Positions 43,581 through 59,489 of a stretch of DNA of 64,000 nucleotides are shown here, one piece after another. Origin of the DNA: Candidatus Zixiibacteriota bacterium (lineage in GTDB: Bacteria > Zixibacteria > MSB-5A5 > GN15 > FEB-12); the NCBI GenBank assembly GCA_040753875.1, contig JBFMDV010000005.1:431142-495141 (forward strand), in the 5' to 3' direction. The notes beneath the pieces are model-generated. The model searched no databases, was not told where the DNA came from, and saw nothing but the letters and a program-made list of their open reading frames with translations. A program made the translations under genes and the position numbers. Numbering within the stretch: position 1 is the first letter of the stretch; each line of letters starts with the position of its first letter.

Positions 43581-45842
43581 ATGGATACTGAACTGATCAC
43601 AACCTTGGTGTCGCTTCTGGCCGGCGGACTTCTGCTCTACCTGGCCATCACCATCACCCGCGACAATTTCGAGAACCGGCTCAACCGGGTGACCGGCTCG
43701 ATGTTGTTTTTCGCGGGGCTGGCGCCGTTGTTTCTGGCGCTCGGTTCAATCGTTCAGCAGCCGGAGGCAGGCGTCACGACTTTGCCCGATTCGCCGCTTT
43801 ATCAACTGCACACGATCTGGGAGCTGTTCTTCCCCACCCTTCTGCTATTTGCCATGCTGTTTCCGGTGGACAGGCTGCGGGAGTTCAAGCAAAGCCGCCT
43901 TCGGACACTCGTCTTCGTGCCGCAGATCATGCACCTGATCATCATGCTGTTTTTCGGCAACATCAACCGCATGCTGGCGATGGTGGAACTGGATCCGAGC
44001 CGCGAGGGGTTCACGACCATCGTCCTCAAGCCGTTCTCGTATTTGTTCACCGGCGTTCTGCTGCTGATCGGGTTTATCCGCTCGTACGAGCAAGTGATTT
44101 TTGATGTCGTCAATCTTCTGTATGTGGGGATAGCGGTATACTTTCTGGAGACCGGCAGCCGATATCTGCGAGAGCCTCGCCTGCTTAATCAGACCAGAAC
44201 GGTCCTCTGGGGGACACGCCTAGCTCTTGGCCTGTATTCGGCTGCGGTGGTGATGGTGCACCTGTTTTCTAAGGAGATTGCGCCACAATATATCGCCGCG
44301 ACGCAGCTGGGTTCGGTGGTGGCGGGGGTGGCGATATTCGGCTATGCAATTATCAGGCATCAGTTCCTCGATGTCCAGTTGGTGTTCCGCCAGTCGTTCA
44401 TCTACACGATCGCCATGGCCATCCTGGTGGGTGGGTATGTGGTGATGGGAATGCAGGCGAAGGAGATGTTGACGCCGTTGTTCGGCGCTCGGGCCGAACT
44501 GGTCAGCTACGTATTCCTGATCTTCGTCCTCTTGCTGTTTCAGCCGATCTCGAGCTGGCTCGACAATTTGATCAGGTCGATGTTCATTCGCACGCGCACC
44601 GACTACCGCGCGATCATCGAGCGATTCTCGCGGCAGGTGATCTCCGTGTTCGATCCGCACCAGTTGCGACAAACGATCGAGGAAACGCTCAAAACGGCGC
44701 TGCTGGTAGAGAACGTATATTTCGTTCTCTACGACGACAGCGTGGGCGAATATACGCTTCTGCCGGACGAACTTTCGTCACATCGGGTCATAATCGACCG
44801 TGATGACCTGATGCTCCGCGGCATCAACCTGCTCGATGCCCCCACCCATTACAGCCTGCTGAACGAATACGAGGAGAGTTCGAAACTGGCCGAGCTGCTT
44901 AAGGAGCGGAAGGTAAAGTTGATCCTGACGATGAAGGACGCGCAACACTTGCTGGGATTCCTCGCTGTAACACAGAAGGCGGCCGGCTATCGCTATTCCG
45001 CGGAAGACTTCAACCTGCTGGGGGTGCTTTCAAATCAAATGGTCACCGCCCTGACCAACGCCCGGCTCTATGTGGAATCCCTCGAGCGGCTGCGATTGCA
45101 GGAAGAAGTCAACATGGCGCGGCAGATCCAGCTCGATCTGCTGCCGTCAAGCCCGCCGGACCTCCCCTGTTCCGTCATCTGTGCCAGCTCAATTCCCTCG
45201 CGCACGGTCGGAGGAGACTTCTATGATTTCGTGCCGACGCGCGACGGCAAGCGGATGGGGATTGTCATCGCCGACGCTTCCGGTAAAGGGATGCCTGCGG
45301 CGCTCATGATGGCCCAGATACAAGCAATGATACGGAGCGAAGTCTCCAACGGCACGCCGATCCCGACAATGATGAGCAATATGAACCAGCAGGTGACACA
45401 CTCGACTTCGGCAGAGAAATATGTGACGTTGTTCTACGGCGAACTGGATAAGGAGACCGGGACGTTTGAATTCGCCAACGCCGGTCATAACTACCCGGTC
45501 CTGGTGCGGGAGAATGGCCAGATCGAACTGCTCGAAGCGGGCGGCCCGATCATTGGGGCGTTCAGTTTCGTTTCGTATACGAGCGCCTCGGTTCAGTTGC
45601 GCCCGAAAGACCTGCTCTTTTTCTTTACCGACGGACTATCCGAGGCGATGGATGCGCAAGGAACCGAATACGGCGAGGAGCGGATTCGCAAGTTTGTCTC
45701 CGAGCGACGCAACGAGGCGCCGAACGCGATCATGCAGATGATACTCGACGATGTGCGGACTCATGACCCAAGCCAGCCGCCACAGGATGACACGACCATC
45801 ATCGCCCTCAAGATGCATGACCATCCCGGAGTCTTGCGATGA
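43581..45842 (+). CDS. Membrane PP2C phosphatase of SpoIIE/RsbU type with GAF domain
   Basis: 753 residues. Eight or more hydrophobic helices (about 1-340) form a membrane sensor, then a GAF-like domain (about 360-500), a coiled linker (LQEEVNMARQIQLDLLPS), and a PP2C-type SpoIIE phosphatase with GGDFYDFV, IADASGKGMPAALMMA and DDTTIIALKMHD. It dephosphorylates the STAS antagonist and so senses an input at the membrane. Stop overlaps the NUDIX gene by four bases. Confidence 0.9.
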   Translation: MDTELITTLVSLLAGGLLLYLAITITRDNFENRLNRVTGSMLFFAGLAPLFLALGSIVQQPEAGVTTLPDSPLYQLHTIWELFFPTLLLFAMLFPVDRLREFKQSRLRTLVFVPQIMHLIIMLFFGNINRMLAMVELDPSREGFTTIVLKPFSYLFTGVLLLIGFIRSYEQVIFDVVNLLYVGIAVYFLETGSRYLREPRLLNQTRTVLWGTRLALGLYSAAVVMVHLFSKEIAPQYIAATQLGSVVAGVAIFGYAIIRHQFLDVQLVFRQSFIYTIAMAILVGGYVVMGMQAKEMLTPLFGARAELVSYVFLIFVLLLFQPISSWLDNLIRSMFIRTRTDYRAIIERFSRQVISVFDPHQLRQTIEETLKTALLVENVYFVLYDDSVGEYTLLPDELSSHRVIIDRDDLMLRGINLLDAPTHYSLLNEYEESSKLAELLKERKVKLILTMKDAQHLLGFLAVTQKAAGYRYSAEDFNLLGVLSNQMVTALTNARLYVESLERLRLQEEVNMARQIQLDLLPSSPPDLPCSVICASSIPSRTVGGDFYDFVPTRDGKRMGIVIADASGKGMPAALMMAQIQAMIRSEVSNGTPIPTMMSNMNQQVTHSTSAEKYVTLFYGELDKETGTFEFANAGHNYPVLVRENGQIELLEAGGPIIGAFSFVSYTSASVQLRPKDLLFFFTDGLSEAMDAQGTEYGEERIRKFVSERRNEAPNAIMQMILDDVRTHDPSQPPQDDTTIIALKMHDHPGVLR

Positions 45843-46411
45843 ACCAGAAGCACGACCGGTTCGATTCCGAGAAACTGTTCGAACGGAAGAAGCACAATTG
45901 CGGCTTTCGATATTGCCCGCTCTGTAGCGGTACACTCGTCGAGGCGGTTATCGACGGCCATCATCGACTGAAATGCTCAAGTGACACCTGCGACTACGTG
46001 TTTTACCAAAATCCGGTACCGGCAGCCGGAGCGATCATCGTCAAAGATGATAGCATACTTCTGGTCAAGCGGGCGCACCCGCCGCGTATCGGCTGGTGGT
46101 GTATACCGGCCGGCTTCATGGAGTGGGACGAACACCCAACCCAGACTGCCGTACGGGAACTTGATGAAGAGACGGGACTGAAAGTCCGTTTGACCAGTTT
46201 CTTTGAGGTCTACAGCGGCAGCGACGACCCGCGTGCCAACGCCCTGTTGATTCTCTATCTGGCCGAAGTTGTCGGCGGCGAGATGCATGCCTCGGATGAT
46301 GCACTGGAGGTCCGGTATTTTCCATTTGATGCGATACCATCAGACATTGCGTTCCAGGCGCATCGTCAGGCCCTGGCAGACTATGATGCACGGTTCCGGC
46401 GGAAGTTGTGA
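45839..46411 (+). CDS. NUDIX hydrolase with N-terminal zinc ribbon
   Basis: 190 residues. A zinc ribbon (CPLC...CSSDTC) at about 23-50, then a canonical Nudix box (G-x5-E-x7-REL-x-EE-x-G-L) beginning GFMEWDEHPTQTAVREL. Zinc-ribbon NUDIX proteins include NAD+ diphosphatases (NudC) and ADP-ribose hydrolases. No NudC SQPWPFPxS motif is seen, so ADP-ribose or nucleotide-sugar hydrolysis is more likely. It overlaps the phosphatase gene by ATGA. Confidence 0.88.
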   Translation: MNQKHDRFDSEKLFERKKHNCGFRYCPLCSGTLVEAVIDGHHRLKCSSDTCDYVFYQNPVPAAGAIIVKDDSILLVKRAHPPRIGWWCIPAGFMEWDEHPTQTAVRELDEETGLKVRLTSFFEVYSGSDDPRANALLILYLAEVVGGEMHASDDALEVRYFPFDAIPSDIAFQAHRQALADYDARFRRKL

Positions 46412-46423
46412 GGGCATAGCGTT

Positions 46424-47866
46424 ATGGCAGCCAGTTTTCGCGGTCGGCTCTTCCGGCTATTCCTGATGTTCGCGTTGATACCCTCGGTCATACTGGCAAC
46501 AGTTGGCGCGTATCTGATATTCTCTTCGCAGCGACCGGTCAGGCCATTGACCGACACCACTTCCTCTGACCTGGTTGCGTATTACAACCAACTCTTGTTC
46601 GAGCGGATCGAGCGCCAGTTGGACTTGTACGCGGCCACAGGCGGTGCCAGCTCGTTCGCGGTTGACTTCCTGTTTGTCGCCGAAGGGGACAGCGCCGAGC
46701 GGATCATAGGAACACAAGAACAACTGTCCCGAGAGAGCATTGATGAGATAGCCCGTGCCTCTCGCGACCGTGAGCGCGGTTTTGTCCTGACCGGCGGCCG
46801 GTTATTTCAATTCGCCAAACGGGCAATGCCGGAGAATCGCACCGTGTATGGCGTGCTCATCCACGACCCACGTCTGGCCGGGCTGTTGCAGTCAGCCGGG
46901 GTCGATGCCGCCAGCCGGTCATTGGAACGAGAGTTGCACACACCATATCTATATTTTCTGGCCGCCTTGGTGGCACTCTTGCTCATCGCAACTCTCGTGA
47001 TCGCCTTCCTGCTTTCGGCGCGGCTGTCGCGGTCCGTGGCGCAGCCGCTTTCCGAGTTGAGCGAGGCCTCGATGAGGATCGCGGGCGGCGACTTCAAACA
47101 GTCAGTGCCGCTCGGGGGAACCGCCGAGATGCGTACGTTGATAGGCAATTTCAACACCATGGCGACAAAACTCGACCAGACAACCGCTATGCTCTCGCAG
47201 ACGCAGCGAGTCGCCGCATGGCGACAGGTGGCACGGCGGTTCGCTCACGAACTGAAAAATCCGTTGCAGCCGATTCTGGTCTCTCTATACCGAATCGAGA
47301 AGCAGCTCATGGACACCGAGGCGTACGACAAGATCTATGAGCCACTCAAGGCGGCTGCCGATGAAGTGAAACATCTGACACTGCTGGCTGACCGATTCTC
47401 ACAATTGGCCAAGCTACCGGAACCATCGATGCAGCAGGTCGACCTGAATGACCTGGCACATTCTGTAATCGAATTGTACCGGGAGAAGCTGGCTGCCTAT
47501 CGTTTCACCGTATCGCTTCCGGACAGGCCGATCGTCATCGATACCGATGAAGGGTACGTTCGGGAGGCGCTCCACAATCTGTTTCAGAATGCGCTCGACG
47601 CCACGGATGAAGGAGGCCGAATTCATCTGGAGATCGCCGGAAGCGGCGATCACGTTCGGCTATCGGTGGCTGATAGCGGCATCGGGATGGACGATACAAC
47701 GCTGGCGTCGGCACGTCTCCCCTATTTCACCACCAAGGACCATGGTAGCGGCCTCGGTCTGGCGATAGTCGAACGGGCGGTAACGGAACTGTCAGGTCAG
47801 ATGGCGATTGAATCTGCCAGAGGACAGGGCACCCGCGTCACACTGACCATTCCGGTAAGGCGCTGA
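46424..47866 (+). CDS. Sensor histidine kinase, NtrY-like
   Basis: 480 residues. Two membrane helices (about 8-28 and 180-200) flank a periplasmic sensor region. A HAMP segment (SRSVAQPLSELSEASMRIAG) precedes the dimerisation/phosphotransfer motif RRFAHELKNPLQPI with the phospho-His. The HATPase has the N-box LFQNALDATDEGG, G1 VADSGIGMDD, and G2 GSGLGLAIVERAV. Partner is the sigma-54 activator directly downstream (2-base gap). Signal unknown; the layout resembles NtrYX. Confidence 0.9.
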   Translation: MAASFRGRLFRLFLMFALIPSVILATVGAYLIFSSQRPVRPLTDTTSSDLVAYYNQLLFERIERQLDLYAATGGASSFAVDFLFVAEGDSAERIIGTQEQLSRESIDEIARASRDRERGFVLTGGRLFQFAKRAMPENRTVYGVLIHDPRLAGLLQSAGVDAASRSLERELHTPYLYFLAALVALLLIATLVIAFLLSARLSRSVAQPLSELSEASMRIAGGDFKQSVPLGGTAEMRTLIGNFNTMATKLDQTTAMLSQTQRVAAWRQVARRFAHELKNPLQPILVSLYRIEKQLMDTEAYDKIYEPLKAAADEVKHLTLLADRFSQLAKLPEPSMQQVDLNDLAHSVIELYREKLAAYRFTVSLPDRPIVIDTDEGYVREALHNLFQNALDATDEGGRIHLEIAGSGDHVRLSVADSGIGMDDTTLASARLPYFTTKDHGSGLGLAIVERAVTELSGQMAIESARGQGTRVTLTIPVRR

Positions 47867-47868
47867 GC

Positions 47869-49212
47869 ATGCCCTCGCGGATTCTCATCATTGACGACGA
47901 GCCGACAATCACCAGGGCTTTCTCTGCGTTGCTGCAAGATCATGGATATGAGACAGCCGCAGCCGGCTCGGTGGGCGAAGCGCTCGTTCTCGTTCGCCGT
48001 CGCCGTTTCGATCTGACGCTCCTCGATCTGCAATTGCCTGATCAGTCCGGGGTTGAATTCCTTCGCCGAACGCGCGAATTGACCCCATCGATGGTGACGG
48101 TGGTGGTCTCCGGTCAAGCTGACATACCCAAGGCCGTGGAAACAATCAAACTGGGCGCAGTAGATTTCCTCGAAAAACCGGTCTCGCCCGAACGATTGAT
48201 CGCAACGGTTCGGACCGCACTGATGTTATCTGCGGCCAATCGCCAGCGCGAACAACTGGTGACTGACCTTGACGCACACAATCAGATTGTGGGAAGATCG
48301 TCGGCCATCCGTAAACTCCTTGAGGTGATCATGCAGGTTGCCCCTGCCGACACCGCGGTGCTCATCACAGGGGAGAACGGCACAGGGAAAGAACTGGTCG
48401 CATCACGACTGTATCTTGAGGGCAGCCGCCGGGACAAGCCGTTCATCAAGGTCAATTGTCCCGGCATTCCGGAGACGTTGTTCGAATCGGAGCTATTCGG
48501 CCACCTCAAAGGGGCGTTTACCGGTGCGGTGCGAGACTACCCCGGAAAATTCGTGCAGGCCGATGGCGGTACGTTGTTTTTGGATGAGATCGGCGACCTG
48601 CCGATGGCATCGCAGGCCAAGCTTCTCCGCGTACTGGAGACGGGCGAGGTGGAAACCTTGGGCGCCACGCAGACACGCGTGGTTGATGTCCGGGTTATCT
48701 GTGCCACGAATCGACCGCTTGAGAAGTTGATCGCAGAGGGCGCGTTCCGCCAGGACCTGTACTACCGAATATCCGTATTTTGTATCCCGGTCCCTTCGCT
48801 CGCGGAACGGCGTGACGACATTCCGCTCCTCATCGGCGGATTCCTGGCGCGATTCGATCCGGCGGGCAGTACCCGCCTTGCCCCCGAAGCGGTTGCGTAT
48901 CTGACGACACTCGCTCTGCCCGGCAATGTGCGTCAACTCAAGAACATCATCGAGCGACTCTGCATACTCTGTCGCGGGCGGATGGTGTCCATCGACGATG
49001 TCGTTGCCCAGAGTGGGACACGGGCAACAACCCCCGTCCGCACACCTGAGGAAAGTTCGCTCGGAGATCGGATGGCTCTCTTCGAGCGGAACATGATCCA
49101 GGCAACACTGGAGTCTGTCGGCGGCAATATCTCGGAGGCGGCTCGTCTCTTGAAAGTTGATCGGGCGCAACTATCCCGCAAGGTCAGCGAATTTGGGCTC
49201 AAGGAAGCTTGA
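47869..49212 (+). CDS. Sigma-54-dependent response regulator (NtrC/NtrX type)
   Basis: 447 residues. Receiver domain with phospho-Asp in FDLTLLDLQLPDQSG. AAA+ domain with Walker A GENGTGKELVASRL, the sigma-54 contact loop GAFTGA, and Walker B GGTLFLDEIGDLP. A C-terminal Fis-type helix-turn-helix is GGNISEAARLLKVDRAQLSR. It activates sigma-54 promoters when phosphorylated by the upstream kinase. Target promoters are not identified with confidence. Confidence 0.93.
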   Translation: MPSRILIIDDEPTITRAFSALLQDHGYETAAAGSVGEALVLVRRRRFDLTLLDLQLPDQSGVEFLRRTRELTPSMVTVVVSGQADIPKAVETIKLGAVDFLEKPVSPERLIATVRTALMLSAANRQREQLVTDLDAHNQIVGRSSAIRKLLEVIMQVAPADTAVLITGENGTGKELVASRLYLEGSRRDKPFIKVNCPGIPETLFESELFGHLKGAFTGAVRDYPGKFVQADGGTLFLDEIGDLPMASQAKLLRVLETGEVETLGATQTRVVDVRVICATNRPLEKLIAEGAFRQDLYYRISVFCIPVPSLAERRDDIPLLIGGFLARFDPAGSTRLAPEAVAYLTTLALPGNVRQLKNIIERLCILCRGRMVSIDDVVAQSGTRATTPVRTPEESSLGDRMALFERNMIQATLESVGGNISEAARLLKVDRAQLSRKVSEFGLKEA

Positions 49213-49342
49213 TGAGTTTCTGTGCGAAGGTGTGTCGACTTGACACGCCCGTTCTTCCGACCATACCCTAACTCCTTATCCACACACAGCTTGACTTGCC
49301 GGCATAAAACTTGTTCTATCCTTGGCGAAAAACGGAGGATGT

Positions 49343-51100
49343 ATGCGACGCATTTGGAGCCGACCCATTCTAATATCGTTCATGTGCTGTTTAGCGGTAG
49401 CAGTCGAGGCGGTCGAACCGCAGTACAAAGAGTATACGGCACCGGTTACGCGTGTTGTCTATTTTGAGATCTCGTTCGATGAGCGCTTTATCACTATCGG
49501 CGTCCCGCATGATACAACTTTCGCTTCCCTCTCTTTCGCTCGGCAGAATTTGAGGCTGTTTCAGGATAGTGTCGTTCTGTCAGCAGTTGCAACCGGTGAC
49601 TATGCCACCTTTCGCCGCGAAGGCTTACTGGTCGGGGATTCGCTCTATCGGTACGACCGCATCTCGGATATGGACATTCGCTTCGAGAGCGGCGAGACAT
49701 TCATTACGTGCTATACGCGCAAGACGACAGACTCCGGCGCTGTGGCTCGCCGCGGCAACCGCATAAGTTTCGATGATCGCGTACGGGTTGCGGAAGGAGC
49801 ATTTGTCCGCGGCATGATCTTCACCGTGAAAGGAAGCGTGACTGTCGATGGCGAAGTGAATCGCGCTATCGTGTCCCTGTTTGGCGATATCGACATTGGA
49901 CCTACCGCAACCGTTCGGGGGGACCTGGCCTCGATAACGGGCGTCATCGATGCCTCCCGTGATGCGGCCGTCTACGGCGATGTCTATTCCGGAGCCAAAA
50001 AAGGCGCACCACGCAAGCACCGGTTTGTCCGGCGGGAAAAAGGGGTCGAACTGATCGGGACGTTTCGGTACGACCGGGTGGACGGCGCGGCGCCGTATGT
50101 CGGCCTCAAGTTCACGGACCAGGATTCATTGCTGCCGTCGGTGTGGGGAGAAATAGGACACGGGTTCGCCTCCAAGCGGTGGCGCTACGAAGCCGGCATG
50201 GAACAGATTGTCTGGAGGAAGATCCCGATCGCCGTGGGTGGGTCTTACCATCGACGGTTGGCATCCGGCGATGACTGGATTATCCGCAATACGGAGAATC
50301 TGGCATTCACGCTTTTGGCCAAAGAAGACTTCAAGGACTACTATGAAGCTGAGGGTGGGACCGTGTATGTCAAAGCCAGGCCTGTTCCGAAGCTCGAATT
50401 CGAAACTCGCTACCGGAATGAGGATCTGCGCTGGTTGAAAGCGCACCGCAATCTCTGGTCCCTTTTCGGCGGCGACAAGCAGTTCCGGGATAATTTCAGC
50501 ACGGTTTCGGAGCCGTTCCACACCCAGGGAATTGCCGATATCGACTCCGCCACACGGGCGGTCCTTAGTTTCAAGGTCGATTATGACACCAGGAGTGCTG
50601 AGGACCTGTTCAAGCACTCGGCGTGGGCGCTGACCGGAGAACTGGACTGGTCCACAAAGGATCTGAACTCCAGTTTCGACTACCGCCGATACACGCTCAG
50701 CTTCCGCCGCTACCAGAGGATCAATCGCTATACCATGTTACTGGGACGACTCATGTATGGCGGCAGTGACGGTTATCTTCCGATGTACGACCGGTTCTTC
50801 GTGGGGGGCTTGGGTACGATGGCGGGATACTACCATAAGGAATACATGGGGACGCGATTCTGGATTACGAATGCCGAGTACCGAGTTGGCTTCCCGCATT
50901 CCGATCTGGCTTTTTCGATCTTGTGGGACATGGCCCAGATTGCCAATGAGCAGAAGCTGAACGGCGATGTGGAAGTGAAGCACTCGCTGGGCGCGGCAAT
51001 GTACATCGGCGACGAATTCAAGTTGAGCCTCGCCAAGCGATTGGATCGCTCGTATCGCGATAATCCGAAGTTTTACGTGCGCCTCGATCATGTATTCTGA
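49343..51100 (+). CDS. Outer-membrane protein: bactofilin-like N-terminal segment with Omp85/surface-antigen barrel
   Basis: 585 residues from the ATG at 49343 with GGAGG upstream. Signal peptide, then a repetitive beta-helix-like stretch (about 130-215, VDGEVNRAIVSLFGDIDIG and PTATVRGDLASITGVIDAS) that resembles polymer-forming bactofilin-like domains. The C-terminal half is a BamA/TamA-like surface-antigen barrel: FFVGGLGTMAGYYHKEYMG, TNAEYRVGFPHSDLAFSIL, and the terminal FYVRLDHVF ending in an aromatic, as in outer-membrane barrels. The combination in one chain is unusual. Function unknown; possibly an envelope biogenesis or adhesion factor. Confidence 0.75.
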   Translation: MRRIWSRPILISFMCCLAVAVEAVEPQYKEYTAPVTRVVYFEISFDERFITIGVPHDTTFASLSFARQNLRLFQDSVVLSAVATGDYATFRREGLLVGDSLYRYDRISDMDIRFESGETFITCYTRKTTDSGAVARRGNRISFDDRVRVAEGAFVRGMIFTVKGSVTVDGEVNRAIVSLFGDIDIGPTATVRGDLASITGVIDASRDAAVYGDVYSGAKKGAPRKHRFVRREKGVELIGTFRYDRVDGAAPYVGLKFTDQDSLLPSVWGEIGHGFASKRWRYEAGMEQIVWRKIPIAVGGSYHRRLASGDDWIIRNTENLAFTLLAKEDFKDYYEAEGGTVYVKARPVPKLEFETRYRNEDLRWLKAHRNLWSLFGGDKQFRDNFSTVSEPFHTQGIADIDSATRAVLSFKVDYDTRSAEDLFKHSAWALTGELDWSTKDLNSSFDYRRYTLSFRRYQRINRYTMLLGRLMYGGSDGYLPMYDRFFVGGLGTMAGYYHKEYMGTRFWITNAEYRVGFPHSDLAFSILWDMAQIANEQKLNGDVEVKHSLGAAMYIGDEFKLSLAKRLDRSYRDNPKFYVRLDHVF

Positions 51101-51128
51101 GGCGCCGTGCCGCCGAACGTGACAAGGG

Positions 51129-51761
51129 ATGATCTGGCGCGTAATTTCGCCTGTAGTGGCCCTGGTGCTGGTTGGGTTTCAGTCGATAGCTGCTGATGCC
51201 GAGCCGCCGGTGGGATATCAGTTGCTCGTTCGGCATGGCTGGGTTGTCGCCATGCCTGACCTAAGCCCGCTGCTGACGAGCGAAAACGTCAGTCGTCTCA
51301 AAGGGGGCATCGGCCTCGTCTTCGATTATCGACTTTCGCTGAAAACTCCACGCCGTCTCTTCGGTGCTCGAACCGTTGCCGAAGCATCATCCGCTCTGCA
51401 AATATCCTACCGACTGCTTACCGACGAGTTCTTAATTTGTCGCCCGACAAACCCAGCCGACAGCGGCCGAACATGTGGTGCTCTGGAGGCGCTGGCCGAT
51501 TACCTTGCCGACTCCCTTGTCGCACGGATGGCGAATATAGACTCTTTGAGTGAGAACAACGTGTATCGACTGGACCTCGACGTGACATCTATCTTGTTAA
51601 CTGACATAAGGTTAATAGCAGGGGGCGGGACCCGGGAAGAGGACCATGAGCCACTCGAGTATCTGTTTCGTCAGTTCCTGAGTCTGACAGGCTACGGCCA
51701 GGAAGAGTGGCACTTTCAGTCCCGCCAGTTCCACCTGTCCGATCTCGCCCGCGAACCCTAA
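51129..51761 (+). CDS. Exported hypothetical protein
   Basis: 210 residues with a signal peptide (ISPVVALVLVGFQSIAADA). The mature part has no recognised domain; visible features are a repeated Leu/Arg-rich pattern and a conserved-looking CRPTNPADSGRTC pair of cysteines. The gene is 28 bases after the barrel protein and could be its partner. The ribosome binding site is weak (AAGGG next to the ATG). Confidence 0.65.
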   Translation: MIWRVISPVVALVLVGFQSIAADAEPPVGYQLLVRHGWVVAMPDLSPLLTSENVSRLKGGIGLVFDYRLSLKTPRRLFGARTVAEASSALQISYRLLTDEFLICRPTNPADSGRTCGALEALADYLADSLVARMANIDSLSENNVYRLDLDVTSILLTDIRLIAGGGTREEDHEPLEYLFRQFLSLTGYGQEEWHFQSRQFHLSDLAREP

Positions 51762-51868
51762 GCAAATCCGCTACTTAGACACGTACTCCCACCTTCCGAC
51801 GGCTAAACTGCATTGCCGGTTGGTCGATATTATGAGTGAATCCGACAGCTCACAACAGTGCAGGTGCT

Positions 51869-53689
51869 ATGAATCGAACGGCGGAAGAAAAGACGATCAA
51901 AGTGACGGCGGGGGGCGCGTCGGCACAATCTCCTCGAGAAATGAACGAAAGCGCCAAGATGGCGCTGGATCTGTTCAACGATCTCGAGGCGACCCTCCAG
52001 CACGTGGCCGAAACCAATCCCCGTATCGCCGGCGCTACCGAAGAACACAACGGCGTGCGGACGTCGGATGTACAGGCACTCCTCGAGGTCTCGCTGGCGA
52101 TCAACTCGTCGCTGGTGCTCGATGACGTTCTTCAGGTCGTTATGCAGAAGGCGATCGAGCTGATGCAGGCCGAACGGGGCCTGATCATGCTTCTGGATGA
52201 ACAGGGCGAGCTCCAGGTCAAGTCCGCCTACAATCTCTGCCGTGAAGAGATCATGGAAGAGGACTTCCGCGTCTCCAACAGCATCACGTACCGGGTGGCC
52301 CAGTCCGGCAAATCGATCTACACGTCCGACGCCATGGCCGACGACCGCTACGCCCAGCAGCAATCGGTGGTCGAGTTGCATCTTCGCAGCATCATGTGCG
52401 TGCCGCTCAAGCTCAAGGAGAAGGTCATCGGTGTTTTCTACCTGGACAATTCCAACCAGGCGCGCATGTTCCTCAAGTCGGACCTGTACCTGTTCGAGCT
52501 GTACGCTCAGATGGCCTCCAACGCGCTACACAATGCCGAGATGTATGATTCACTCCTGAGTCTGAAACGGTACCATGAGTCGGTCGTGACCAACACGCCG
52601 ATCGGAATTGTCGTGCTCGACGGCTTGGGGCGTATCGCCACCATCAACCCGGTCGGTCTCGAGATCTTCGACCTCAACAAGAACGATGTCACCGTGCTCG
52701 GCTCCGAGCAGCCGTCCACCATTTTCATAGACAAGCTGCCGCAGCTCGAGCGCCCACGCTGGCAGAAAATGATCAATCAGGTGCTGGCCACCAAGCAGGA
52801 GCTTTCGGATCCGAGGTATTTCCACAACACCGGGTATGTGGAGAAAGTGCTCTCGATCAAGATCTCGCCGGTGGCGGAACTCCCCAGCGGCGCCAACGGT
52901 CTCACGATGGCCATCGAAGATGTTACCGAGAAAGTGCTGATGGAGAAGTACGTCATCCTCTCTGAGAAACTGGTGGCTCGGGGTGAGATGGCCGCCTCGG
53001 TAGCGCACGAGCTCAACAATTACCTGTCGATCATCTCGAACAACGCTGAGCTGATGCAGCTCAATATCGATCGGGAGAAGTACGACAAGGTCAAGTTTAA
53101 CAGCAAGTCGATCGTCGAGAATATCTTCAAGATCAAACGGTTCGTCGACAGCCTGATGGATTTCTCCAAACCGGAACCGGAGTACCTGCACTACGACATC
53201 AAGCATCTTATCGACGATTTGCTGTTCTCGCTGCGGATACAGCCGCGCTTCAAGCTTATCCACTTTACGGTCGATCTGGCTACTGATATCCCCACGATCG
53301 AGATCGATGTCGGCCAGGTGCAGCAGGTGCTCATGAATCTGTTGAACAACGCAGCCGACGCCATCGAGGAGCAGGCCCTGCAATATCAGAACGAAGGAAA
53401 GCCGTTTACGCGGCAGATCGGTATCACCGCGTTCTTCGACAAGAATCGCGACGAGCTCGCCCTTGAGATTTCGGACAACGGTACCGGCATGTCCGAGGAG
53501 ACGCTGGCGAAGATCTTCAATCTGCACTTCACCACCAAGAAGCACGGCCACGGCCTTGGTCTGCACAACTGCAAGAAGATCGTCGAGCAGCACAACGGAC
53601 AACTGACAGTCAGCTCCAAGCAAGGTGAGGGGACGATCTTTAAGATTTCCCTGAGGCGCCTGCAGCCGAAACGCCAACCCACGACCTAA
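51869..53689 (+). CDS. Cytosolic GAF-PAS sensor histidine kinase
   Basis: 606 residues from the ATG at 51869 (a GTG at 51836 also possible). GAF domain (about 55-225), PAS-like segment (about 240-360, NTPIGIVVLDGLGRIATINP), HisKA motif AASVAHELNNYLSIISNNA with phospho-His, and HATPase boxes LNNAADAIEEQ, DNGTGMSEE, KHGHGLGLHNCKK. No transmembrane helices, so it senses an internal signal. Its TAA is immediately followed by the ATG of the Ser/Thr kinase, implying co-translation and shared function. Confidence 0.9.
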   Translation: MNRTAEEKTIKVTAGGASAQSPREMNESAKMALDLFNDLEATLQHVAETNPRIAGATEEHNGVRTSDVQALLEVSLAINSSLVLDDVLQVVMQKAIELMQAERGLIMLLDEQGELQVKSAYNLCREEIMEEDFRVSNSITYRVAQSGKSIYTSDAMADDRYAQQQSVVELHLRSIMCVPLKLKEKVIGVFYLDNSNQARMFLKSDLYLFELYAQMASNALHNAEMYDSLLSLKRYHESVVTNTPIGIVVLDGLGRIATINPVGLEIFDLNKNDVTVLGSEQPSTIFIDKLPQLERPRWQKMINQVLATKQELSDPRYFHNTGYVEKVLSIKISPVAELPSGANGLTMAIEDVTEKVLMEKYVILSEKLVARGEMAASVAHELNNYLSIISNNAELMQLNIDREKYDKVKFNSKSIVENIFKIKRFVDSLMDFSKPEPEYLHYDIKHLIDDLLFSLRIQPRFKLIHFTVDLATDIPTIEIDVGQVQQVLMNLLNNAADAIEEQALQYQNEGKPFTRQIGITAFFDKNRDELALEISDNGTGMSEETLAKIFNLHFTTKKHGHGLGLHNCKKIVEQHNGQLTVSSKQGEGTIFKISLRRLQPKRQPTT

Positions 53690-56600
53690 ATGAATGTCGC
53701 CGACGACCCCCGCTTTCGAAGCCTTCGTCCGCTCGGCCGGGGTGGCACAGCCGAGGTCCTGCGGGCGTATGTAGTCGACCGGGAAATCGACGCCGCGCTC
53801 AAGTTCCCATTAGCCATTGCCACCGCTCCGGCGGTCGACTTCGCCACTCTGGCTGATCGTGAATATCACCTCATCGGCGACCTGACGTTCCCGGGTCTGG
53901 TACGTCTCCTGGAGCCACCGCACCATTCGCCGAACTATCTTCTTCTCGAATTCTGTGCCGGACCTACGCTGGACAAACTAGGGCGGGTGGCGGACATTTC
54001 GAAGGCGCTTGAGCTCATCTCAGCCGTTGCCGTCAATCTGGAGTATCTGCATGCCCATGGCATCATTCACGGCGATCTGAAGCCGCAGAATATCTTCCTG
54101 CCGTCCGATTGGCGATCGTACAACCACGGACAGTTCTTTTTCGTCAAAATATCCGATTTCTCGCTGGGGCGTTTCTCCGACGAACCTGAGGCGACGCGGG
54201 CCGGTCTCGGCACAGTCGGCTTCATGGCGCCGGAGACGATCGCGTCATCGCGTACCAGTAATCGCTCCGATCTGTTTGCGCTGGGTGTGATCGCCTATCA
54301 GCTTCTAAGCGGACATCACCCTTTCATGGACGAAGATACTGACCCGGTCCGCGTCAACGCGCGCATTGCGGAAGATTCGCCCGAACCGATCGGGCAGTTA
54401 TGTCCCGGGCTTGATCCTGCCGTAGCCGAAATCGTACATCAATTACTGGCCAGGGAAGAATCCGGTCGGCCGGGATCGGCCGTTGCGGTGTGCGGGATAC
54501 TGGAAAAGGCAGGTTGCCGGTATCCGTTCCGCGCGGCGCTTCATCCAAAGTGGTTCCTGATGAAGCGAGCGTTTTGGCAGCAAGGTATCGAACGCTGGCT
54601 GCGTGCGGACAGCGCCGTCCTTGAGCGAGTCAGACAGTTGACCGACGAGGACCCGACAAACCTTCACCTGCTGCTTTCGACCAACTATCGTCTCGGACGG
54701 CTGGTCTACGCAGAGGGGAAATTCAAATTTACTCAATCTCCGTACTGGCCTTCACGAATGCGCAGGTATGCACTGCGGAGATTCGCCTCCGGGTCGTTCG
54801 AGTTCAAGCGCAACGTGGTCACGGCAGCTGTCGTGTGGAACGCAGCAGAGGCACAGACTTTCGGAGTAGTACGGCCAGAGACAGAGACTCGGCATGACGG
54901 ATCGCTGGTGTTGCTGCTCCCCTCACTTCTTCGCGCAGCCACGGTACGTCGACTGTCGCGTTCGTATGCCCGCCGAGCAGAACATGCAGACCATTTCGCA
55001 TACGCCTCGCGACTCTGGGTGCAGGCGGGTGATCTGGAAGGCGCAGAACGGTGCGCCTATCAGGCAGCATATCAGTTGCGGCGCGACAGCAGAAATCAGG
55101 ATGCCCTCACGATACTACGGCATGTAATCATCTATGCGGACATGAACGACCGCGGGTGGGAGGTACGTCAGCTTATCATGCTCGCGGGAGACCTGCATAA
55201 GGAGAACGGTGAGGCGGAGCAATCGCTCATCTGCTATCGGCGCATCGTCGACCTCTATGCGAATCACCCGCCGGACAAGCTGCTGGCGGAGACGTATAAA
55301 GACCTTGGAGACATCCACAAGATCAAGCAGGACTTTCAGGCAGGCCTCGAAGCGTTGCAGAGGGCGCTTGAGATATATCGTGAACTTCGTGATGATCTGG
55401 AAATCTCGCATTCTCTCAATAATATAGGAAACATCTACTGGCTCACAGGCGATGTCCGCCAGGCGCTCACCAGGTATCGCATGGCGCTGCGGATTCAACG
55501 AAGACTGGCGATCACCGCAGATGTAGCGTCGACTCTAAACAACATCGGAGCCATATATGGTACAACTGGGCGATTCAGCCGTGGGATTCGGATACTCAGG
55601 CTCTCTCTCGGGCTTAAACGAGAGATTGGCCATAAAGGAGAAATCGCACGGACTCTCAACAACCTAGGGTATATTCTGCATTTGAGCGGCCATTCGGCGC
55701 AGGCCGTCGCGCTCCTCGATGAATCCCTATCTATCAATCGTGAGATTGGTAGTAGAAAAGAGGTTTTGTTCAATCTGGAGAATCTCACGGCTGTTATGAT
55801 CACCGCAGGAAAACTGGGTGAGTCATTGCAGTACATTGGAGAAGGGATGCAGATGTCCGAGGAACTGACGGACAAGCCGCATCTCGGGATTTTTTGCCAG
55901 AGCATGGCGTCTGTGTTGACCCGAATGGGTCGATACTCCGAAGCGGTCCATTACCTGGAACAGGGGGCTCAAATACTTGAGCAGATTGATGACGCTGCAC
56001 TGGCTGTGCTGGTGCAGATTCAGCGAGCGGAAATTAAATACCAACTGGGCAACAGTGAGGCAGCTTTCGAACTGGCACTGGCGGGGCTTTCCATGGCGAC
56101 AGAGAAAGACAACGCCCTCAGTCGTGTAGCCGCACTATTACTCCTTACTCGCCTTTCATCCGAGGAGCATTTTTGGAGAGAAGCCGAAGCATTGGTTCAC
56201 GAACTTCAATTGGTGCGCGAAACTAGGTTGCTGCAATTCAATCGGCTTGAATTCCTGCTGCGTCACGAACGATGGTACAAAGCAACGGATGGCGTGGACG
56301 ACCTGATGCGCATCGCCAATCAATTCACCGATGATTTGGAATTGCCGCGGATACGAATCCTGCTCGCCGAAATCCTGCTCAAAATGGACGATCACGATTC
56401 CGCTCGTGTACAATTGGATCTCGTTCGAGCCGATCAGATCGATGAATTGGCCCCGGAAGCAATGATGACTGCCATACTGCAAGGCAAGATTGCGGCCTCC
56501 ATGGGGGATTTTGAAGGCTGCTTCTCGAAGTACCAACTGGGCCTCCGACTGTGTAAACAGATCGCTGAAACGATCGAGGATAAGATTGACCGCGGTCGGT

Positions 56601-56710
56601 ACCAGACAAAACCAGATGTAGTCTTCCTGGTCGGCGAGATCCGTCGACTTGGAGCCAGACTAGGACAAAAACAAAGGGCAGGATCAGGGCCTGCCCTTAA
56701 GAAATCGTAA
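53690..56710 (+). CDS. Ser/Thr protein kinase with C-terminal TPR array
   Basis: 1006 residues. Kinase domain at about 10-270: glycine loop GRGGTAEV (16-23), catalytic Lys38 in AALKFP, HGDLKPQN with catalytic Asp129 (HGD in place of HRD), DFS (156-158) in place of DFG, and GTVGFMAPE. The next ~180 residues are of no known domain. From about 480 to 960 there is a TPR array with repeats such as LAETYKDLGDIHKIKQDF, SHSLNNIGNIYWLTGD and ARTLNNLGYILHLSGH. TPR repeats usually bind partner proteins. Start codon abuts the histidine kinase stop, so the two probably form one signalling unit. The 3' end overlaps the terminator of the minus-strand micro-gene. Confidence 0.9.
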   Translation: MNVADDPRFRSLRPLGRGGTAEVLRAYVVDREIDAALKFPLAIATAPAVDFATLADREYHLIGDLTFPGLVRLLEPPHHSPNYLLLEFCAGPTLDKLGRVADISKALELISAVAVNLEYLHAHGIIHGDLKPQNIFLPSDWRSYNHGQFFFVKISDFSLGRFSDEPEATRAGLGTVGFMAPETIASSRTSNRSDLFALGVIAYQLLSGHHPFMDEDTDPVRVNARIAEDSPEPIGQLCPGLDPAVAEIVHQLLAREESGRPGSAVAVCGILEKAGCRYPFRAALHPKWFLMKRAFWQQGIERWLRADSAVLERVRQLTDEDPTNLHLLLSTNYRLGRLVYAEGKFKFTQSPYWPSRMRRYALRRFASGSFEFKRNVVTAAVVWNAAEAQTFGVVRPETETRHDGSLVLLLPSLLRAATVRRLSRSYARRAEHADHFAYASRLWVQAGDLEGAERCAYQAAYQLRRDSRNQDALTILRHVIIYADMNDRGWEVRQLIMLAGDLHKENGEAEQSLICYRRIVDLYANHPPDKLLAETYKDLGDIHKIKQDFQAGLEALQRALEIYRELRDDLEISHSLNNIGNIYWLTGDVRQALTRYRMALRIQRRLAITADVASTLNNIGAIYGTTGRFSRGIRILRLSLGLKREIGHKGEIARTLNNLGYILHLSGHSAQAVALLDESLSINREIGSRKEVLFNLENLTAVMITAGKLGESLQYIGEGMQMSEELTDKPHLGIFCQSMASVLTRMGRYSEAVHYLEQGAQILEQIDDAALAVLVQIQRAEIKYQLGNSEAAFELALAGLSMATEKDNALSRVAALLLLTRLSSEEHFWREAEALVHELQLVRETRLLQFNRLEFLLRHERWYKATDGVDDLMRIANQFTDDLELPRIRILLAEILLKMDDHDSARVQLDLVRADQIDELAPEAMMTAILQGKIAASMGDFEGCFSKYQLGLRLCKQIAETIEDKIDRGRYQTKPDVVFLVGEIRRLGARLGQKQRAGSGPALKKS
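56663..56698 (-). terminator. Terminator of the 24-codon gene (embedded in the kinase-TPR gene's 3' end)
   Basis: On the minus strand AAGGGCAGG pairs with CCTGCCCTT around CCCTGAT and is followed by TGTTTTTGT. It lies 32 bases past the stop of the micro-gene. Confidence 0.72.
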
Positions 56711-56729
56711 GGCCGCTGGCCTCTCGTGA

Positions 56730-56804
56730 TTACTGGCCGCCCAGACTGATTCCGACCGGTGCGACACGGGTCTCGAGGACCTCGACCTTGAGAGTGTACT
56801 TCAT
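56730..56804 (-). CDS. 24-residue peptide, putative RiPP-like precursor
   Basis: Peptide MKYTLKVEVLETRVAPVGIS followed by LGGQ. The ATG is preceded by GAAGGAGGTGAGTGA, close to an ideal ribosome binding site at normal spacing. The gene has its own promoter (56897-56924), a leader hairpin (CCTCCC with GGGAGG, about 56841-56862), and a terminator (56663-56698). All elements together make it a real, well-expressed gene although it is too short for routine calling. It is 376 bases downstream of a gene for a PqqD-M50-HlyD fusion on the same strand, the type of protein that matures or exports modified peptides. No Cys, so thioether chemistry is unlikely; possibly a short leader (MKYTLKVEVLETR) with a VAPVGISLGGQ core. 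Function is inferred. Confidence 0.7.
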   Translation of the reverse strand: MKYTLKVEVLETRVAPVGISLGGQ

Positions 56805-56896
56805 TCACTCACCTCCTTCACGTGTGTGTGTGTATGTTCTCCTCCCCGTCGTGGGAGGATTTTGCTCTTGGATGCCCTCTACAGATTTCTACGCGC

Positions 56897-56924
56897 AATA
56901 TATCGATCCTGTTGCGTGCGTCAA
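56897..56924 (-). promoter_or_regulatory. Promoter of the 24-codon gene
   Basis: On the minus strand TTGACG (56919-56924), a 16-base spacer, then TATATT (56897-56902). Predicted start about 56890, leaving an 86-base leader with a hairpin before the ribosome binding site. Confidence 0.6.
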
Positions 56925-57104
56925 GGCCCAATGGCGATATGCTCAGTCTTCATTCCGTATCCCACGGAAAAAGACTCACACATCGGGAAAACATTTCCGA
57001 TGCGAGCTCCCTCTGTTGCTTTCCTGTCGGGTCTTTCCTCCTTGAGCCCCACGCTCAGGTGCGGTGTGTCCCTCACACGTGACTCCTGAGTGCGTCTCAC
57101 ACGC

Positions 57105-57132
57105 AAGATAATGCGGCATCATTGCTTGTCAA
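57105..57132 (-). promoter_or_regulatory. Second minus-strand promoter, upstream of the micro-gene
   Basis: TTGACA (57127-57132), 16-base spacer, TATCTT (57105-57110), just past the stop of the M50/HlyD gene. A transcript from here would have a ~300-base leader before the peptide ATG, with a CATCGGAAA/TTTCCCGATG hairpin (about 56976-57002). No other gene is seen between 56925 and 57104, although CTCAAGGAGG near 57040 could be a ribosome binding site without a good start. Confidence 0.55.
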
Positions 57133-57179
57133 GTGAAAAATGGAGTTCCCCTTTAAGTCCACACCTGCGCGGAAAGCGC

Positions 57180-59489
57180 TCACCACCAGGACCAGAACTC
57201 GACCCGCAGCGCCGACAGCAGTTTTCGGAACGCCCAGTTGGCGATTGAGGTCTCCCCCACTTCGATCTTCGCGTAGCCGGTCATCCCCTGGGAAAGCAGG
57301 TTTTCCTGATTGTCGACCACGACTGAGACCGGAAAGTACGCGCGGTCCTTAAATGGCGCGGTGAACGTAGGGACACGCACAACGATTCCGGCGAAAACGC
57401 GGCTGGGGTACGGTCGCACTTTGATCCTTGCCGTTTGGCCCTTGGCAACGAGTTTGATATCGAAATCAGACACCGGTACCAGCATCTCTACCTGCTGGTT
57501 GTAGCAGACGGTCAGCACCGTGTCGGCGCGTCGATTGGCTCCAGCCACGCCTGAGATCGGGGTGGTCACGGTCTGCGCGTCCGCCTGCCCTTTGAAATAG
57601 TCGAGCGTCGCACGCTGTTTTTCGATATCCCGCTGGAGTACGTCTTCCTCTTCCTTCCTCGGCGGGGATTTGAGCAGCGCCAGTGATGAGCGCTTCTGGT
57701 TGAGGTCCGCTTTGGCGACATCCATCGCCGAACGCGCTGACTCGAGTTTGTCCTTGGCTTCAAGTCCCTTGGCGTACAGACCATCGATCCGTTTGAAATC
57801 TCGCTCCGATTGGTCGAAAGTCGCCTTGGCGGCGTTGACCGCCGCCGTGGCTTCTGCGATCTGCTCTTTCTTCTTGGGGGCGCGAAGCAGCGCCAGCTCT
57901 CCCTCCAATCGCTGCAACTCTTTCTCAGCCGCTGCGAGGGCCTGGACGCTTTCGTTGGAGCGGACGACCACCAGCGTGTCACCGGCCTTTATGACTTGTC
58001 CGTCGCGCACGATCGGCTGAACGTTAAGCGCAGCAAGATCCATCGACATCATCTTCAGGAAACTGGACTTCCGGTCCGGCGTTTCGCCGCCAAGGCGAAG
58101 CGTGCTTTCCAACAATCCAAGATTAGTCAGCGACAGTGTGAATTGCGACAGCGGTTCAACCTCCACCTCCCCCGAAACCCGATGCGGGAACCACGGCACA
58201 AATAACCCGACCAGCATGACGATCAGGAGTAAAACGTAAATGGACAGACGGATCGGTTTGTGCACCAGGGCTCTCATATATTTGAAATGCTGCAGCATTC
58301 CCTTGCCCGTGTCGGCCAGGGGCTGCCTCATAATAACGGCCAGCGCCGCTATCAACAAGAGTATTCCCCTCCCCCCCCACTGCTCATAGGCAAACCGCCC
58401 CAGCACCCACACGAAATACACGACGAGAAACGTGGAATACGCCAGTGCCAGAGTGGCATAGAGTGAATAGATTCGCCGTTCGCGATGAGTGACACTCACC
58501 GGCTCAATGGGCCACCCCAGAACGACACGCTGGAAAAAATTTCCGAGATACGCAAACGCCTTGCGCCGCAGATTGGGGACCTCAAGGTAGTCTGAAAGGA
58601 GATAATAGCCATCGAGCTTTATCAGCGGATTGAAATTGAACAGGAACGTCACCCAGCAGACGATTGCTGTCACGCGAGCGAGCTCATTGACGAACAGACC
58701 CGGCACCGTGAGTCGCCACAGGATCACGCTGACCGCCAGCAGGAGAAACTGGAAGTACGGTCCCGCCCAGGTGACCGCGAGTCGCTGTGATTTGCGAGGA
58801 AACAACCAGGCATCAGAGACATCTGAGTAGAAGCACGGCGTAAAATACATGATGAGGATCCCCATCTCTTGGACCTGCCCCCCGTGATACCGACAGATGA
58901 CGGCATGCGCGAATTCGTGAAGCGTCACCAGCAAGAAGAAGGCGACCAGCAAGGTCGCAACTGAAGCCACCGACCACAGCGATGACAGGTTGACCGTAAA
59001 TTCTGCGACATTGGCAAGCAGCAGACCCAGGCCGGTAAGTATGATCAAACTCTCCACCAGTATCCAGCCGGGGCGATGGAATGGCTTGTACATGGTCGTA
59101 AGTACATCGAGCAGCCGTCCGGGTCTGAACGCCTTGAGTTTGATGTACAGAAGGCGCGCTGCCAGCGAGTGGTGGCGCTGAGCGGCACGCGCCGCACGCA
59201 TCAACTCCTGTTCGCTTCGTCCATCCTCGATCAGGAAAAGAGACCTTAACTGACCGACAAATTGCTCGATGTCAGTGGCGCCGATCTCCAGCTCAAATTT
59301 CGCTGCAAACGCAGCCGCGAGCATATCGGCCGTGGCTGTTCCATCCAGATGCTGTGCCAGCCAGTGCTCCGGCGCACGCAGGCGGATGTAGTTGCCGGTG
59401 ACGGGATCCTTGAGTGTGTACACGCGTTCGGACCCTTCAGTGGATTCCGCCGTGACCAAGTCGGATCGGAGTTTCGGCAGGACAGCCAT
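57180..59489 (-). CDS. PqqD-like / M50 intramembrane peptidase / HlyD fusion protein
   Basis: 769 residues in a three-part order. Residues 1-95 resemble a PqqD peptide-binding domain (VYTLKDPVTGNYIRLRAPEH). The central membrane part (about 140-410) has the site-2-protease motif HEFAH at 191-195 and a KLDGYYLLSDY motif (the third zinc ligand). The C-terminal part (about 430-769) is an HlyD-like periplasmic adaptor with a long coiled coil (about 525-620) and a beta-barrel region. This order matches putative peptide zinc metalloproteases of peptide-maturation loci (YydH-like). No ABC transporter, radical SAM or other modification enzyme lies beside it here. It probably handles the small peptide encoded downstream, by cleavage in the membrane and export. 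Confidence 0.85.
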   Translation of the reverse strand: MAVLPKLRSDLVTAESTEGSERVYTLKDPVTGNYIRLRAPEHWLAQHLDGTATADMLAAAFAAKFELEIGATDIEQFVGQLRSLFLIEDGRSEQELMRAARAAQRHHSLAARLLYIKLKAFRPGRLLDVLTTMYKPFHRPGWILVESLIILTGLGLLLANVAEFTVNLSSLWSVASVATLLVAFFLLVTLHEFAHAVICRYHGGQVQEMGILIMYFTPCFYSDVSDAWLFPRKSQRLAVTWAGPYFQFLLLAVSVILWRLTVPGLFVNELARVTAIVCWVTFLFNFNPLIKLDGYYLLSDYLEVPNLRRKAFAYLGNFFQRVVLGWPIEPVSVTHRERRIYSLYATLALAYSTFLVVYFVWVLGRFAYEQWGGRGILLLIAALAVIMRQPLADTGKGMLQHFKYMRALVHKPIRLSIYVLLLIVMLVGLFVPWFPHRVSGEVEVEPLSQFTLSLTNLGLLESTLRLGGETPDRKSSFLKMMSMDLAALNVQPIVRDGQVIKAGDTLVVVRSNESVQALAAAEKELQRLEGELALLRAPKKKEQIAEATAAVNAAKATFDQSERDFKRIDGLYAKGLEAKDKLESARSAMDVAKADLNQKRSSLALLKSPPRKEEEDVLQRDIEKQRATLDYFKGQADAQTVTTPISGVAGANRRADTVLTVCYNQQVEMLVPVSDFDIKLVAKGQTARIKVRPYPSRVFAGIVVRVPTFTAPFKDRAYFPVSVVVDNQENLLSQGMTGYAKIEVGETSIANWAFRKLLSALRVEFWSWW

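Follow-up and report, generated by a model that had tools for sequence, protein, structure and literature searches.

A conserved 24-codon peptide precursor gene and its putative PqqD-M50-HlyD processing partner in Zixibacteria

A stretch of 64,000 nucleotides (hereafter, the window) from a 3.29 Mb Candidatus Zixiibacteriota genome contains a 24-codon open reading frame (ORF) that is a real and strongly conserved peptide precursor gene, lying downstream of, and on the same strand as, a gene encoding a 769-residue fusion of PqqD-like, M50 metalloprotease and HlyD-like parts. The explanation favored here, in which we have fairly good confidence, is that the small gene encodes a secreted precursor whose leader would be bound by the PqqD-like domain, cut after a proline by the M50 domain and exported with the involvement of the HlyD-like part. 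The pair is apparently an undescribed relative of the machinery that processes daptide leaders, maturation by an RRE-bearing site-2 protease being of a known kind. A preliminary description based on the sequence had proposed a RiPP-like (ribosomally synthesized and post-translationally modified peptide) precursor tied to the fusion. A minimal precursor that co-occurs with the fusion is indeed what was found, although the term RiPP is not applied here in its strict sense, given that no dedicated modifying enzyme is encoded adjacent to it.

The precursor gene and the fusion

The distribution of the small gene, which translates as MKYTLKVEVLETRVAPVGISLGGQ, was considered in 132 Zixibacteria genomes, with presence being scored at E<=1e-40 for the fusion and at E<=0.002 for a peptide profile built from 24 Zixibacteria peptides adjoining same-family fusions. 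As is the case for most genomes considered in this study, these are largely metagenome-assembled genomes (MAGs), and start codons were inferred. The peptide was detected in 104 genomes and the fusion in 100, with 96 genomes containing both, four the fusion alone, eight the peptide alone and 24 neither (Fisher p 1.2e-15, a value that ignores the kinship of the genomes and hence overstates their independence). Absence of both together is seen in several genera and one family. Translation of flanking regions revealed a small ORF of the form M.DYKLTVEVLEARIAP.G.S.GGQ downstream of nearly every same-family fusion with enough contig, at a distance of ~150-530 nt and, once, of ~1 kb. Within seven genera, the peptide gene showed a ratio of nonsynonymous to synonymous polymorphism (pN/pS) of ~0.14, reflecting purifying selection. 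The small ORF is, therefore, present with a conserved codon pattern near homologous fusions in relatives, the point on which the preliminary description had staked its proposal.

The expression signals assigned in that description to the small gene, namely, a promoter, a hairpin, a ribosome binding site and a terminator that enters the 3' end of a gene encoding a kinase-TPR protein, are all present (Table 1) and recur in relatives. An AGGAGG-type ribosome binding site is kept by nearly all of them, while recurrence of the other signals was assessed in 56 relatives of the peptide gene, with expectations taken from shuffled sequence. Promoters matching at least 10 of 12 positions were found within 200 nt upstream in 33 of the 56 (1.9 expected) and, in the family to which the window belongs, lie mostly 105-135 nt ahead of the start codon; in the corresponding region of the window, the scan returned two sites, as compared to 0.4 in shuffles. 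A downstream terminator was seen in 35 of the 56 relatives (1.6 expected). The window hairpin (56859-56840), found 5' of the ribosome binding site, folds yet is unexceptional when taken alone (z -0.8), whereas hairpins at the same position across the 56 relatives present a mean z of -1.48 (t -8.4). No sigma54 sites were detected 5' of the peptide genes with the pattern used, nor did an Rfam search of the region yield a match.

Because the terminator overlaps the 3' end of the kinase-TPR gene and this convergent order is conserved, a small transcript that controls the kinase-TPR mRNA in cis or as an antisense RNA, with the ORF being incidental, was also considered. The constraint acting at the amino acid level (pN/pS 0.14), the appearance of this leader in other phyla, where the kinase does not adjoin it, and the existence of copies remote from the kinase together render such a role highly improbable.

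The three-part composition ascribed to the upstream gene product likewise holds, with the PqqD assignment being weak. The M50 region combines transmembrane-like segments with HExxH and a distal LDG motif, as in M50 intramembrane metalloproteases; the HEFAH and LDGYY motifs show little or no variation across 25-80 homologs, with H191, E192, H195, D293 and G294 being invariant in 80 sequences. The C-terminal half, for which the barrel-sandwich and alpha-hairpin fold was recovered, resembles periplasmic adaptors by both fold (MacA, Foldseek E 1.9e-16) and profile (EmrA, E 6.6e-19). The Foldseek search with the whole fusion is dominated by this part and is silent on the PqqD and M50 folds either way. 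The best NCBIfam match of the fusion is the daptide intramembrane protease family daptide_HExxH (NF041824; E 8e-63, 212.8 bits, below the cut-off of 300), with the homolog from Eisenbacteria also scoring below the curated cut-off (E 1e-68). The YydH/LiaK family (NF058609), to which the preliminary description had likened these parts, is matched at E 4e-10, far below its cut-off, and thus gives way to the daptide protease. In 24 Zixibacteria loci (L006, L008, L013, L019 and others), although not in the window, a gene that by sequence encodes a ClC-type chloride channel precedes the fusion.

Table 1. Features of the window discussed in the text.
Feature	Position	Strand	Basis
Precursor peptide gene, 24 codons	56730..56804	-	ORF; Zixibacteria relatives; pN/pS
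Leader, residues 1-16, consensus Y.L.[VI]E.LE.[RK]IAP	56757..56804	-	Residue conservation; daptide register
Predicted mature peptide VGISLGGQ	56733..56756	-	P16 cut by analogy with daptide P(-1) (PMC10036551); tail lengths
Ribosome binding site GAAGGAGGTGAG	56808..56819	-	Sequence; 3 bases 5' of ATG
Hairpin in 5' untranslated region, TCCTCCCACGACGGGGAGGA	56840..56859	-	Folding; recurrence at same place in relatives
Sigma70-like promoter TTGACG-16-TATATT	56897..56924	-	Scan, 10/12 match
Second promoter-like site TTGACA-16-TATCTT	57105..57132	-	Scan, 10/12 match
Intrinsic terminator	56674..56698	-	Scan; within last codons of kinase-TPR ORF (end 56710)
PqqD (RRE-like)-M50-HlyD fusion, 769 aa, candidate leader-binding protease and exporter	57180..59489	-	Family matches; structure model (pLDDT 85)
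PqqD/RRE-like domain, residues 1-90	59220..59489	-	Weak Pfam PqqD match
M50 active site HEFAH, residues 191-195	58905..58919	-	H191, E192, H195 invariant
M50 LDGYY motif, residues 292-296	58602..58616	-	D293, G294, Y295 invariant
HlyD/MacA/EmrA-like periplasmic adaptor part, residues 430-748	57246..58202	-	Foldseek; profile
Ser/Thr kinase-TPR protein, convergent with peptide gene	53690..56710	+	Pfam; conserved linkage
GAF-PAS-HisKA soluble histidine kinase	51836..53689	+	Pfam; same conserved block
Omp85-like protein	49322..51100	+	Recurs at end of block
DUF4390 protein	51129..51761	+	Gene in window block (joint span with Omp85-like gene, 49322..51761)

A leader shared across phyla and its likeness to daptides

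Residue conservation was examined in 64 Zixibacteria peptides, numbered such that the proline of the predicted cut is residue -1. L(-12), L(-7), E(-6) and P(-1) are invariant in all 64 sequences, Y(-14) is found in 63, E(-9) in 62 and A(-2) in 61, while positions -4 (R/K) and -3 (I/V/L) keep the same type of residue. The tail that follows is 6-8 residues long in 49 of the 64 peptides and strongly conserved in Zixibacteria, where most genomes encode a single copy. In one genus (g10), up to seven tandem copies keep the leader and present altered tails.

Relatives outside the phylum were sought in GTDB species genomes; the fusion as a single-protein query gave no matches against genome contigs, whereas an alignment-based scan did. 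Full-length fusions sharing 28-31% identity with that of the window were so identified in Acidobacteriota, Verrucomicrobiota, Planctomycetota, Eisenbacteria, Aminicenantes, Rokubacteria and others. At 15 of 16 such loci, drawn from six further lineages, between one and five ORFs that begin with K.L.(h)EELE.RIAP and continue into a different tail were counted at E<=1e-3. At this threshold, the leader profile matched one of 49 loci of distant fusions and none of 80 shuffled loci, a control that, together with all of the comparative results, refutes the notion of a chance ORF or artefact that a length of only 24 codons might otherwise invite. When 14 of these genomes were searched whole, strong profile matches appeared almost solely beside the fusion.

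The tails in these other phyla range from ~10 to ~100 residues and include recurrent types, namely, GNPGNNNPPLNNTNNPGNEGTGGQVSTG, GYDGQPGNQ..NPSGSANPE, SNGNPGNEVSNG and DTVGALHNNPNNPNNNN..AIPEGPAG. Several are near-identical between phyla, even though the adjoining fusions share only 40-55% identity; this may reflect horizontal transfer or, given that MAGs are concerned, mis-binning, although the fusions differ throughout. Since tails vary behind it, the ELEx[RK]IAP-type N terminus (LETRVAP in the window) is the leader and the tail the variable part, in agreement with the match of this motif to the daptide leader described below and reversing the earlier assignment of LE(T)RVAP as the core. 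The leader and its putative partner, the protease-exporter, appear together across about seven bacterial phyla.

Other small ORFs were observed at related loci. In Aminicenantes, three to four near-identical tandem peptide copies ending in VVKLNVERLEKRIAPTRAAIAMG are found (L213:10388-10646 and L218:7911-8294), while short peptides with the variant leader MQTEIEVLES/TRETPG lie beside fusions in Acidobacteriota (L281:825 and L286:4126). At L052 and L056, which lack an adjacent peptide of the usual kind, small ORFs rich in Lys and Cys, each with a good ribosome binding site (MPCKTKKSCGKTKKPAKPKK and MPKAKKKKGGCKTKKPC), are positioned ~800 nt downstream of the fusion.

What marked out daptide clusters was an intramembrane site-2 protease bearing an N-terminally fused RRE, together with short precursor ORFs (MpaA) containing ELExMEAP, the proline of which is residue -1 (PMC10036551). 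In that system, alanine substitution in the leader at L(-7) or M(-4) abolishes modification, substitution at E(-8), P(-5), E(-3) or P(-1) reduces it, and leader removal is assigned to the fused peptidase MpaP (PMC10036551). In the peptides considered here, ELEx[RK]IAP aligns in register with this motif, the fusion presents the same order of a putative RRE-type domain followed by an M50 intramembrane protease, and some genomes encode multiple precursors per locus, as do daptide producers. By contrast, the C-terminal Thr that is invariant in daptides, the products of which bear a C-terminal dimethylamine, is found in none of the 64 peptides, for which Gln (as GGQ) is the commonest last residue. 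Nor are genes for the aminotransferase, dehydrogenase, methyltransferase and DUF-RRE proteins (MpaB/C/D/M) found nearby, with the neighboring ORFs instead encoding kinases, Omp85-like, DUF4390 and other proteins; daptide_RRE (NF041823) was not found in the genome containing the window in a search that lacked a positive control. Moreover, the protease here is fused to HlyD, and the hosts are Zixibacteria, Acidobacteriota, Verrucomicrobiota, Planctomycetota and others, rather than the Actinomycetota and Bacillota that encode daptides. With neither the C-terminal Thr nor nearby modifying genes, the system is not a daptide and, as judged by sequence, corresponds to the leader-processing half of that type.

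Likeness to other families is more partial. Epipeptides (YydF/LiaK) also rely on an M50-type maturation protease, but the leader is unrelated as far as tested and no radical SAM epimerase is encoded among the neighboring ORFs examined; the lack of a radical SAM protein, cyclase or ABC transporter among these neighbors had been correctly noted before. HlyD/MacA/EmrA adaptors, to which the C-terminal half of the fusion belongs by profile and fold, are here joined to a candidate leader-binding intramembrane protease with no dedicated ABC, MFS or RND pump adjacent. The peptides match no model in Pfam or NCBIfam, and no paper describing the motif, the tails or such a fusion was found in the open-access full-text literature, coverage of which is incomplete.

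The kinase-TPR neighborhood and the use of the peptide

Whereas the preliminary description captured the peptide and the fusion, it overlooked a conserved link to the convergent kinase-TPR gene and to the gene encoding a GAF histidine kinase. Of 57 Zixibacteria loci with room to show it, 55 have kinase-TPR followed by GAF histidine kinase genes beside the peptide gene, and in 52 the TPR gene is tail-to-tail with the peptide gene. This linkage persists in families whose fusion is elsewhere. Both kinases are without transmembrane-like segments. The model of the TPR array (pLDDT 91.6) and its profile and fold matches point to LGN/Pins, kinesin light chain and OGT; the TPRs of LGN/Pins and kinesin light chain bind linear peptides. 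At one Terriglobia locus, a gene for a kinase-TPR-GAF-sigma54 protein precedes the peptide, while in Eisenbacteria, the cassette is preceded by a BTAD regulator. In the window itself, a same-strand run of regulatory genes (43581-53689) encodes, by sequence, a GAF-PP2C phosphatase, a NUDIX protein, a HAMP histidine kinase, an NtrC-type sigma54 regulator, the Omp85-like and DUF4390 proteins and the GAF histidine kinase, with kinase-TPR coming next.

On the basis of these positions, a secreted peptide signal in Zixibacteria is plausible and, of the uses considered, the most attractive. TPR receptors of the RRNPP type sense peptides, and the favored explanation could be extended such that a matured peptide of 6-8 residues would serve as a pheromone, with the linked soluble TPR-Ser/Thr kinase and the GAF histidine kinase acting as its sensors in an RRNPP-like manner. 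This extension, which we offer only tentatively, draws on the conserved linkage, on the resemblance of the TPR part to linear-peptide-binding TPRs, on the predicted mature length in 49 of the 64 peptides and on the regulators that precede the peptide in Terriglobia and Eisenbacteria, and shares with RRNPP quorum sensing the adjacency of a short peptide gene and a TPR regulator gene. It is opposed by the apparent solubility of both kinases, which implies that the peptide would need to be re-imported, by the kinase-TPR linkage not being general beyond Zixibacteria, and by the N/G/P-rich tails of 30-50 residues seen elsewhere, which are unlike pheromones. Furthermore, no RRNPP protein was among the 50 best Foldseek or 60 best PDB profile matches listed. 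Homology of the TPR part to RRNPP proteins, as had been entertained, is thus unsupported by fold; the part is LGN/kinesin light chain-like and fused to a Ser/Thr kinase, and the peptide is putatively handled by an M50-HlyD fusion.

A peptide used in competition, that is, a bacteriocin-like RiPP that depends on the fusion for maturation and export, would fit with a leader followed by a variable tail, with tandem copies, with the HlyD export part and with the membrane activity of the related daptides and epipeptides (PMC7026026). Still, the peptide is mostly single-copy, spans most of the phylum and has a strongly conserved tail in Zixibacteria, and no immunity or modification gene was found. 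For these reasons, an antimicrobial role is considered unlikely, and the tails are, in addition, short and hydrophilic.

A proposed pathway and its implications

In the pathway that we favor, the small gene would give rise to a secreted peptide precursor, and the RRE-like PqqD domain of the fusion would bind its 16 N-terminal residues, which end in EVLETRVAP. As the proline of the daptide leader is P(-1) and the leaders are in register, the M50 intramembrane metalloprotease would be expected to cut after P16, dividing the precursor into MKYTLKVEVLETRVAP and VGISLGGQ. The HlyD/MacA-like part would then carry the product across the periplasm, probably together with a TolC-type channel encoded elsewhere, and the released peptide would be used most probably as a signal outside the cell or as another secreted factor.

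Several observations weigh against this pathway. The PqqD similarity of the fusion N terminus is weak and under the Pfam cut-off (E 0.005 in the window and 1.4e-4 in the Eisenbacteria homolog), with PqqD (PDB 3g2b; E 0.086) and the lasso peptide protein TfuB1 (6jx3; E 0.16) being among five weak profile matches, although the assignment agrees with the proposed mechanism. No gene for an outer-membrane channel or energizing transporter was identified. In several Zixibacteria families, the fusion is 22-26 kb from the peptide or on another contig, and eight genomes contain the peptide without the fusion and four the fusion without the peptide, although these are drafts; tblastn near three of the peptide-only loci returned no match to the fusion. 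Finally, LExRxAP is also found on ORFs of 119-313 residues at related loci, such that substrates may go beyond peptides.

These longer ORFs, with LExR[IV]AP at the N terminus, lie next to more distant relatives of the fusion at locus ends in Acidobacteriota (L291, L292, L293 and L294, one frame in the last exceeding this size range) and Planctomycetota (L224, L226 and L231). Judging from such sequences, LExR[IV]AP may be a general tag not restricted to peptides, and one possibly linked to the unexplained Planctomycete extracellular motif PF07595. The latter matched one leader peptide weakly (E 0.11, below cut-off) and overlaps with fusion carriers in four of eight genomes, which is suggestive only; PF07595 is, moreover, found mostly on large proteins. 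Membership of the leader peptides in this family was rejected, the matches being weak and rare, and the motif is kept as a lead.

With a precursor family retained in the greater part of an uncultured phylum and occurring in several others besides, this would be an RRE-site-2-protease system of very wide distribution, comprising two or three genes where a full cluster is usual. It would indicate that the leader-RRE-protease module is separable from daptide chemistry, and the protease-adaptor fusion is a candidate for a maturation and export machine in one polypeptide. With 24 codons and no Pfam or NCBIfam model, such a gene is easily missed by annotation. A broader and more doubtful proposal, to which we attach rather little weight, is that Gram-negative candidate phyla have a form of peptide communication built of a daptide-type leader, an RRE-protease-adaptor fusion and a convergent TPR-kinase/GAF histidine kinase receptor block, with LExR-AP as a general export and maturation tag on peptides and larger proteins alike in about seven phyla. 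We know of no peptide signaling in these bacteria, for which the gene described here provides a concrete candidate.

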